From positions 14,403 through 46,570 of the forward strand of contig NZ_MAXA01000219.1 of the NCBI RefSeq assembly GCF_001854695.1: a DNA stretch of 32,168 bases. Direction: 5' to 3'. Positions 28,523 to 32,168 of this stretch are shown here, one piece after another (the stretch's first letter is position 1; the number at the start of each line of letters is the position of its first letter). The notes beneath the pieces were generated by a model. The model searched no databases. It was not told the origin of the DNA and was given only the letters and a program-made list of their open reading frames with translations. The DNA is from Parafrankia soli (lineage in GTDB: Bacteria > Actinomycetota > Actinomycetes > Frankiales > Frankiaceae). Both the position numbers and the translations under genes were made by a program.

Positions 28523-28614
28523 GCCATCGACGGCCGCCCGAGGTACCGACTCGCCGGTCGCGTCGATCCCGCACGGATCGGCCGGCCGGGCCAGGTGAAC
28601 GGGAGGTGGATCGC

Positions 28615-29388
28615 GTGGACATCGTGGTCAAGGGCAGGCACACCGCGGTTCCGGAACGGTTCCGCAGGCATGTCCAGGCCAAACTCGCGAAGCTCGAGCG
28701 GCTCGACTCCAAGGTCATGCTGGTCGACGTCGAACTCTCCAAGGAACACAACCCTCGGCTGTCGGACACCTGCGACCGTGTCGAGCTCACCGTGTATTCG
28801 CGGGGCCCGGTGATCCGTGCGGAGGCCGCCGCGGCCGACGCCTACGCCGCGCTCGACCGCGCTACCGCCAAGCTGGCGGAGCGCCTGCGCCGCGCTTCGG
28901 ACCGGCGGGTCCGCCACCACGCCAACCACGCGGGTGCGAACCACCCGGTTCCCGGCTGGGCGGGTGCCGTCCCGGACATCCCCGCCGTCCCGACCGGCCG
29001 CCAGCCGGAGACGGACACCGCCGGCCCGCCGGTCCCGGGCGCCGAGGACGGCGCGGCGGGCCTCGCCGCCGTCGGATCCGAGACCCGCGCGAAGCGGCCG
29101 AGCTGGTCGACGGCCGACGATGGCGACGGCGACGATTCCGACTACTCGCCGATGGTGGTACGCGAGAAGACCCACGAGGCCGCGCCCATGACGCTCGACG
29201 ACGCCCTGTCGAACATGGAGCTCGTGGGGCACGACTTCTACCTTTTCCTCGATGCCGCTAGCGGCCTGCCCAGCGTCGTGTACCGCCGATGCGGCTACGA
29301 CTACGGCGTCATCCGGCTCGAGGGAGCGGCCGGAGACAGCATGATCGGCGCCCGGGAACGAACGGCGGCGGTCATTTCCGCCGTGTGA
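28615..29388 (+). CDS. hpf: Long-form ribosome hibernation promoting factor (HPF)
   Basis: Binds 70S ribosomes and drives their inactive dimerisation or protection in stationary phase and stress. The 257-residue product has an N-terminal HPF domain (MDIVVKGRHTAVPERFRRHVQAKLAKLE, VELSKEHNPRL, about residues 1-100), a ~80-residue acidic/Pro linker, and the C-terminal dimerisation domain (SPMVVREKTHEAAPMTLDDALSNMELVGHDFYLFLDA, VVYRRCGYDYGVIRLE). The GTG at 28615 is chosen because GGGAGG (28601-28606) precedes it at a good distance; the upstream GTG at 28606 overlaps that ribosome site. Near secA in actinomycetes, as here. Confidence 0.93.
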   Translation: MDIVVKGRHTAVPERFRRHVQAKLAKLERLDSKVMLVDVELSKEHNPRLSDTCDRVELTVYSRGPVIRAEAAAADAYAALDRATAKLAERLRRASDRRVRHHANHAGANHPVPGWAGAVPDIPAVPTGRQPETDTAGPPVPGAEDGAAGLAAVGSETRAKRPSWSTADDGDGDDSDYSPMVVREKTHEAAPMTLDDALSNMELVGHDFYLFLDAASGLPSVVYRRCGYDYGVIRLEGAAGDSMIGARERTAAVISAV

Positions 29389-29468
29389 CGGTCGATCCCC
29401 CCTGCCGGCGTGGGACCATTTGCCTTGGGTGTCGGACTCCCGGCATCGGTGCACACGGCACGTTCCAC

Positions 29469-29508
29469 GGGTTGTGCCCCCGGCGTCGCGACGCCGGGGG
29501 CACAACCC
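29469..29508. repeat. 40-bp perfect palindrome between hpf and response regulator
   Basis: Arms of 19 bases (29469-29487 and 29490-29508) are exact reverse complements around a GC centre, so the whole 40 bp is self-complementary. It contains a GTTGTGCCCCC half and its mirror image. It lies 80 bp after the hpf stop and 29 bp before the response regulator start. There is no U-tract. It could be a strong hairpin terminator of the GC-rich kind, a protein-binding site, or a copy of a dispersed palindromic repeat. Confidence 0.95.
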
Positions 29509-29537
29509 CGCGGGAGCGGTTCCAGGGGAGGTCGGAG

Positions 29538-30251
29538 ATGACGGTGGACGAGCAGCGTTCCGAGGAGGCGCTGCGTACGCCATCGGAGGCGAATCCCATC
29601 CGGGTGCTCATCGTTGACGATCATGCCCTGTTCCGGCGCGGCCTGGAGATGGTCCTGGCGCAGGAGGTCGACATCGAGGTCGTCGGTGAGGCCGCCGACG
29701 GGGCGGAGGCGGTCACGATGGCCGCCGAGATGGCGCCGGACATCGTCCTGATGGATGTCCGCATGCCCAGGCGCGGTGGGATCGACGCCACGAGCGCCAT
29801 CAAGGAGAAGGTGCCCAGTGCGAAGATCGTGATGCTCACGATAAGTGACGAGGAAGCCGACCTCTTTGACGCCATCAAGGCCGGCGCCATGGGCTACCTC
29901 CTCAAGGAGATCTCGATCGACGAGGTCGCCGCGGACATTCGGGCGGTCTACAACGGCCAGAGCCTCATCAGCCCGTCCATGGCCTCCAAGCTGCTCAGCG
30001 AGTTCGCGGCCATGATCAAGACGAAGGACGACCGCCCGCAGCTCCCGACACCGCGGCTGACCGACCGGGAGATGGAGGTCCTCCGCCTGGTCGCCAAGGG
30101 GCTGAACAACCGGGACATCGCCAAGCAGCTCTACATCAGCGAGAACACGGTGAAGAACCACATCCGGAACATCCTGGAGAAGCTCCAGCTCCACTCCCGG
30201 ATGGAGGCGGTGGTGTACGCGGTGCGGGAGAAGTTGCTCGAGATCACCTGA
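29538..30251 (+). CDS. Orphan NarL/LuxR-type response regulator
   Basis: A 237-residue two-component regulator. The receiver domain holds the acidic pair D27-D28, the phosphoacceptor D73 (in IVLMDVRMP), T101 and K123. The C-terminal LuxR-type helix-turn-helix is LTDREMEVLRLVAKGLNNRDIAKQLYISENTVKNHIRNILEKL. The ATG start has GGGGAGG (29525-29531) with a 6-nt spacer. No histidine kinase gene is adjacent, so its partner is unknown. The gene sits between hpf and secA and could be cotranscribed with hpf unless the palindrome upstream stops transcription. A LuxR-type regulator in this position recurs in actinomycetes. Confidence 0.93.
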   Translation: MTVDEQRSEEALRTPSEANPIRVLIVDDHALFRRGLEMVLAQEVDIEVVGEAADGAEAVTMAAEMAPDIVLMDVRMPRRGGIDATSAIKEKVPSAKIVMLTISDEEADLFDAIKAGAMGYLLKEISIDEVAADIRAVYNGQSLISPSMASKLLSEFAAMIKTKDDRPQLPTPRLTDREMEVLRLVAKGLNNRDIAKQLYISENTVKNHIRNILEKLQLHSRMEAVVYAVREKLLEIT

Positions 30252-31313: not shown

Positions 31314-32168
31314 GTGGTTCTAGACAAGATCTTGCGTGCCGGTGAGGGCCGGATTCTGCGCAAGCTCAAGGCGATCGCCGAGCAGGTGAACCTCATCGAG
31401 GACGACTTCACCGGTCTGACCGACGCCGAGCTGCGCGGGATGACCGACGAGTTCCGCCAGCGCCTGGCCAGCGAAGAGGAAACCCTCGACTCGTTGCTGC
31501 CCGAGGCGTTCGCGACGGTGCGCGAGGCGGCGCGGCGCACGCTCGGCCAGCGCCATTTCGACGTCCAGATCATGGGTGGCGCGGCGCTGCACCTGGGCAA
31601 CATCGCCGAGATGAAGACCGGTGAGGGCAAGACCCTGGTCTCCACGCTGCCGTCCTACCTGAACGCCCTGAGCGGCAACGGCGTCCACATCGTCACGGTG
31701 AACGACTACCTGGCCCAGCGCGACGCCGAGAACATGGGCCGTGTCCACCGCTTCCTCGGCCTCACGGTCGGTGTCATCCATCCCCAGATGCCGCCGTCGG
31801 TGCGCCGCCAGCAGTACCGGTGCGACATCACCTACGGCACGAACAACGAGTTCGGGTTCGACTACCTGCGCGACAACATGTCCTGGAGCGCCGAGGAACT
31901 GGTCCAGCGCGGCCATCACTTCGCCGTTGTGGACGAGGTCGACTCCATCCTCATCGACGAGGCACGTACGCCCCTGATCATCAGCGGCCCGGCCGACAAC
32001 CCGACCCGCTGGTACACCGAGTTCTCGCGGATCGCCCCCCTGCTCGAGCGGGACGTCGACTACGAGGTCGAGGAGGGCAAGCGGACGGTCTCGATCAGCG
32101 AGGTCGGCGTGGAGAAGGTCGAGGACCAGCTCGGCATCGAGAACCTGTACGAGTCGGTGAACACCCCC
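31314..32168 (+). CDS. secA: Preprotein translocase ATPase SecA (3' truncated by window)
   Basis: Motor ATPase of the Sec secretion pathway. The first 285 codons are in the window. The GTG at 31314 follows GGAGGAG by 7 nt. The protein opens [20 protein letters not shown], followed by the Walker A loop MKTGEGKT (about 100-107), [20 protein letters not shown], the Q/R region [18 protein letters not shown] and the DEAD-type Walker B DEVD (207-210) with [15 protein letters not shown]. All match full-length SecA1-like proteins. The frame runs off the end without a stop, so the C-terminal half is missing from the window. Confidence 0.97.

Follow-up and report, generated by a model that had tools for sequence, protein, structure and literature searches.

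A structurally conserved hairpin without a U-tract in the predicted leader of an OrrA-like response regulator gene of Frankiaceae

The hpf-regulator locus

The window, that is, the whole 32,168-nt stretch of Parafrankia soli DNA that was analysed, contains a perfect palindrome between two codirectional genes of the plus strand. The upstream gene (28606-29388) is hpf, encoding the long form of the ribosome hibernation promoting factor (Pfam domains PF02482 (S30AE) and PF16321 above cut-off), and the downstream gene (29538-30251) encodes a response regulator of the NarL/LuxR family (PF00072 and PF00196); secA is located further downstream, at 31314. Judged by its position, the regulator counts as an orphan, and it is OrrA/SCO3008-like in its family, its orphan status and its neighbourhood near hpf. 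SCO3008 itself also adjoins hpf. In Streptomyces, SCO3008, an orphan of the NarL type, has been named OrrA; its partner is OhkA, and wblA, development and antibiotics are under its control (PMC9739842).

The reading frame of the regulator remains open upstream, through the intergenic palindrome and into hpf, giving 320 codons if read from the ATG at 29289 (29289-30251). The lengths of the corresponding gaps in related genomes do not keep this frame, and the extension is therefore probably a chance feature of GC-rich DNA.

The palindrome and its predicted fold

The palindrome occupies positions 29469-29508 (GGGTTGTGCCCCCGGCGTCG CGACGCCGGGGGCACAACCC), 80 nt 3' of the hpf stop codon and 29 nt 5' of the start codon of the regulator. 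In the inverted-repeat listing of the window, its arms (29469-29488 and 29489-29508) are 100% complementary with a 0-nt spacer. A preliminary description of this DNA had reported a perfect 40-bp palindrome between hpf and an orphan response regulator gene, with exactly matching arms; the palindrome is real and its coordinates are right, but the arms measure 20 bases rather than the 19 given there. As RNA of the plus strand, the palindrome folds into an 18-bp stem (29469-29486 paired with 29491-29508) capped by a CGCG loop, and the entire 149-nt gap between the two genes folds better than all 200 of 200 shuffled versions (z -4.2).

The sequence that follows the palindrome, CGCGGGAGCGGT, holds no U-tract, and a scan for terminator patterns found no match, so that the hairpin does not fit the pattern of a canonical intrinsic terminator. 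A search against Rfam returned 11 weak matches, all far below the gathering score, and accordingly no known cis-regulatory RNA. The genome search that the preliminary description had proposed found the palindrome in a single copy in the 8.03-Mb host genome, with up to 3 mismatches allowed, which contradicts the suggestion that it is a copy of a genome-wide palindromic element.

Long perfect hairpins in the host genome

A simple model of base composition predicts 2e-6 loopless 20-bp arms per window, and against this model the earlier statement that the match is far beyond chance holds. It softens against the real genome: 1.10 Mb of host stretches, with genes assigned by a home-made codon-usage gene caller whose gene starts are approximate, contain 7 intergenic perfect hairpins with arms of at least 20 bp, or about one per 157 kb. 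The palindrome is thus non-random, yet it is one member of a hairpin class.

The same 1.10-Mb sample includes 62 perfect hairpins of at least 13 bp with loops of up to 8 nt, nearly all of them without a T-run. Their density is 0.73 per kb in convergent gaps, 0.21 per kb in codirectional gaps and 0.039 per kb in divergent gaps; in other words, long perfect hairpins lacking a U-tract are about 19 times denser between convergent than between divergent genes (L134:3871-3910 and the 1.10 Mb of G000 stretches). This excess is a mark of gene 3' ends and points to I-shaped gene ends across the Parafrankia genome. In a control for stem turnover, three convergent gene-end gaps were tried, of which one could not be aligned; at both alignable gaps the letters of the hairpin differ between species of the genus. 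The first of these gaps has a perfect or near-perfect hairpin, with different letters, in every genome, and the second has one only in some. The rapid turnover of stem letters in the gene-end hairpins of the genus supports the placement of the hairpin at 29469 in that class.

Conservation of structure and turnover of sequence

A strong hairpin is present at the same place in 24 genomes (24 distinct gaps measured) from four genera of Frankiaceae, including 6 of 6 genomes of the host genus, 13 of 13 of Frankia in the narrow sense, and members of two further groups (g4, and g2, which comprises Protofrankia and relatives). The stems of some relatives are weaker or internally mismatched, and several have only 13-16 clean pairs; most have loops of 3-11 nt and some wobble pairs, and hence are not perfect palindromes. 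Alignment of the host gap with that of G003, its nearest relative, shows 5 differences in 149 positions, four of which make up two fully compensated pairs (T-A to C-G and C-G to T-A). Across the five Parafrankia gaps that were aligned, mismatch amounts to 33% in the hairpin columns compared with 5-6% in the flanks, so that stem letters change about 6 times faster than their surroundings. Among the 13 Frankia gaps, 9 of the 17 stem pairs show double-sided compensation, and the paired fraction of cells is 96%. Covariation scores 0.46, compared with 0.23 after shuffling and no more than 0.14 when the partners are slid. The strand count of wobble pairs in the stems is 12 G.U to 7 A.C, where selection at the RNA level would tolerate G.U but not A.C.

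Structure is conserved here and sequence is not. Because the letters of the arms are free while their pairing is kept, the element is unlikely to be a site read by a sequence-specific protein or a member of a repeat family; nor, given the loops of most relatives, does palindromy itself seem to be what is conserved. The alignment of the gap in related strains, also proposed in the preliminary description, speaks in particular against the dimer binding site suggested there: almost every species has an arm sequence of its own, complementarity stays, and no half-site is conserved. The same description held that a unique sequence in a freely varying gap would make a repeat-family or conserved-site role unlikely; the sequence is indeed unique, yet variation in the gap is not free but confined to the letters of the stem, between flanks that hardly change.

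In most of the Frankia loci (L007-L016 and L021), the hairpin stands between the two halves of an inverted repeat, with GGACCAT within the -10 region on one side and (A/G)TGGTCC immediately before the Shine-Dalgarno sequence on the other. This bracketing repeat was dropped as a candidate part of the element, being absent in Parafrankia.

The promoter element and the predicted leader

Upstream of the hairpin, the plus-strand motif GTGGGACCAT at 29410-29419 (TG followed by GACCAT; class consensus GTGnnAYSAT) is the predicted extended -10 element of the regulator gene. The consensus, a pattern chosen after inspection of the sequences, occurs in 53 of 94 distinct upstream gaps compared with 0.5 expected in shuffled gaps. 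More independent support than this count comes from four loci of distant Actinomycetes MAGs (L084, L086, L105 and L109), in which TGYCATCAT stands six bases before a GTG start that has no Shine-Dalgarno sequence, a -10 spacing typical of leaderless actinobacterial mRNAs; in these loci the regulator gene appears to be leaderless. A 15-base form of the -10 element matches 25 Frankiaceae genomes, almost all of them once; the exceptions are G006, with a second match elsewhere, and G010, which matches only elsewhere. A sigma-70 scan found no promoter, as expected for an extended -10 element without a good -35, and no promoter-like element was seen in the 29 nt between the hairpin and the start codon.

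With transcription starting about 7 nt after the -10 element, near 29426, the predicted 5' leader of the regulator mRNA would extend over 29426-29537 on the plus strand and include the hairpin at approximately +44 to +83. RNA folding of the Parafrankia leaders also places a small 8-bp hairpin at 29428-29447 (plus strand) in 4 of 5, and this one is confined to that genus. The Shine-Dalgarno sequence, GGGGAGG at 29525-29531 (plus strand), begins 16 nt after the large hairpin, and GGAGG before the start codon is conserved in the aligned Parafrankia and Frankia gaps. A search of the literature found no papers on Frankia transcription starts or on leader structure of SCO3008.

In the 24 genomes, the hairpin ends 24-34 nt (mean 29.4, sd 2.5) short of the start codon and begins either 21-27 or 47-49 nt after the -10 element, whereas the distance from the hpf stop codon to the -10 element ranges from 25 to 125 nt. 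The constancy of the former spacing and the variability of the latter indicate that the hairpin travels with the leader of the regulator and not with the end of hpf. Four loci outside this group (L056, L057, L059 and L062) show the ordinary arrangement, with the hairpin just after the hpf stop codon and before the -10 element.

A possible role in partial termination

The covariation of the stem and its position suggest that the hairpin functions at the RNA level. The explanation that we tentatively prefer, while giving it somewhat less than an even chance, is that a terminator-class hairpin without a U-tract partly stops RNA polymerase in the leader, trims read-through from hpf and throttles the regulator. 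Under this scheme, polymerase coming from hpf, or from the regulator promoter about 50 nt upstream, would make the 18-bp stem, and the stem would pause or partly terminate it, alone or with NusG or Rho; read-through from hpf would be reduced and the regulator would be expressed at a throttled level. The hairpin would accordingly lie within the regulator mRNA and partial termination would take place there. This is the best-supported reading, in that it joins two facts, the anatomy of the terminator class and the position in the leader. Insulation of hpf from the regulator gene, a role considered in the preliminary description, is compatible with it and may be regarded as a relative of the same predicted function.

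The preliminary description was correct that a U-tract is absent, but its conclusion that the hairpin is therefore not a standard terminator is weak in a GC-rich phylum. In Streptomyces clavuligerus, 353 of 535 structured 3' ends lack U (HS-U-lack), and 150 premature transcription units have been reported, premature leader ends being common in Streptomyces (PMC8269248). Considering such ends together with the gene-end hairpins of the host, the missing U-tract does not exclude a terminator-like role. Mycobacterial hairpins of this kind have been reviewed as I-shaped terminators, situated within about 50 bp of the stop codon (PMC12288462). The hairpin at 29469 shares with the I-shaped and HS-U-lack classes a long, GC-rich, near-perfect and sequence-neutral stem (18 bp, with the stability noted above), the lack of a U-tract, the sense orientation relative to the upstream gene and the occurrence of its kind at gene ends in the same genome. 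It differs in that a predicted promoter precedes it and the next start codon follows at a constant spacing, which would put it inside a leader, and in that termination at it is only predicted; moreover, it starts 80 nt from the hpf stop codon in the host and about 150 nt in Protofrankia coriariae, against about 50 bp for the mycobacterial I-shaped terminators.

The nearest tested precedent is TtsaD of the alr-groEL1 operon of Mycobacterium tuberculosis, a partial, I-shaped hairpin without a U-tract that, in a reporter, reduces expression downstream of it (PMC5335608). TtsaD likewise lies between codirectional genes, but after tsaD inside an operon, whereas the present hairpin is placed between the regulator's own putative promoter element and its ribosome site. 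Another parallel is with riboswitch terminators and leader attenuators, in which, too, a hairpin downstream of the promoter and upstream of the start codon could cut transcription short. Here, unlike in those systems, no Rfam family came up to its gathering score, and neither a conserved sensor domain nor a conserved alternative (antiterminator) pairing was seen; for the latter two reasons a riboswitch is not proposed.

Several considerations run against partial termination. A terminator immediately after a gene's own promoter would lower the expression of that gene, and a role in translation or mRNA stability would account at least equally well for the constant spacing to the start codon. Furthermore, mycobacterial RNA polymerase reportedly does not terminate in vitro at hairpins that lack a U-tract (Czyz, 2014, cited in PMC5335608). 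Termination by such hairpins in actinobacteria is disputed, and nature has provided a clean test at this locus, where stems of differing sequence occupy one fixed position in 24 genomes, with conserved flanks and promoter.

Terminator-class hairpins without a U-tract are known; what is unusual here is the well-conserved position in a leader. The more specific proposition that this is an undescribed leader element particular to Frankiaceae, selected only as a hairpin, that sets the level of an OrrA-type regulator by partial termination, is one that we hold as possible but rather doubtful. Were it true, the dosage of a developmental regulator would be tuned by stem stability alone, before a gene whose Streptomyces homologue governs development and antibiotics.

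Alternative explanations

The main rival to partial termination is a hairpin that does not stop polymerase but stabilises the leader against 5'-to-3' decay and shields the ribosome binding site from pairing with upstream leader or hpf sequence, and so would yield a longer-lived and evenly translated regulator mRNA. The narrow range of distances to the start codon despite unrelated stems, which puts the hairpin just outside the ribosome footprint, and the location of the Shine-Dalgarno sequence outside the stem both favour this role. However, such hairpins concentrate at gene ends and not in leaders in the host genome, and 15-43 nt from the predicted 5' end is not an ideal position for 5'-end protection; on balance we judge this role unlikely, though to be taken seriously.

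A hairpin that only terminates hpf or stabilises its 3' end, with the regulator transcribed from elsewhere or the hairpin passed without effect, would be of the same class as the gene-end hairpins and would correspond to the arrangement in L056, L057, L059 and L062, where it directly follows the hpf stop codon. We regard this as improbable, given that in loci of the Protofrankia type the hpf stop codon lies some 70-100 nt further upstream and the spacing of promoter, hairpin and start codon is nevertheless kept, and that the 29 nt downstream of the hairpin hold nothing promoter-like.

Cleavage by RNase III, separating the hpf and regulator mRNAs at a perfect stem of 18-21 bp, is distinctly less probable: the length and near-perfect pairing of the stem might suit a nuclease specific for double strands, but several relatives have the reduced number of clean pairs given above, and hairpins of this class are frequent in convergent gaps, in which no separation of mRNAs would be called for. 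It is hard to credit, too, that the palindrome is a by-product of mutation that template switching keeps perfecting, without any function. Template-switch correction would give the observed fast, paired change of stem letters relative to the flanks, and the wobble count may be entered in its favour; still, a hairpin of unrelated sequence recurs at the same spacing in four genera, and divergent gaps are almost devoid of such hairpins, which is unexpected of a purely mutational process. Finally, an element acting as DNA, either a cruciform or the target of a dimeric regulator, has the perfect two-fold symmetry of the host palindrome for it but is largely contradicted by arms that are unique in the genome and not conserved, and by the loops and wobble pairs of most relatives, and is the least credible of all.

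Related loci

Loci of the Pseudofrankia type (g6: L017-L020, L022-L024 and L027) have a longer hpf-regulator gap, of 290-570 nt. The perfect leader hairpin is missing from them; the 135-210 nt of leader after the -10 element are strongly folded, and several (L020, L024 and L027) have separate hairpins near the hpf stop codon.

Elsewhere in the host genome, L203 carries a perfect palindrome that is longer than the one at 29469, with 58 bp and 29-base arms (TGTCGACCGCCGCGCCTCGTAATCCCCCAT...; L203:5764-5821, corresponding to G000:C1:125764-125821). A 38-bp palindrome precedes it by 550 nt, and the 58-bp palindrome could be the end of a mobile element or a feature of the assembly.
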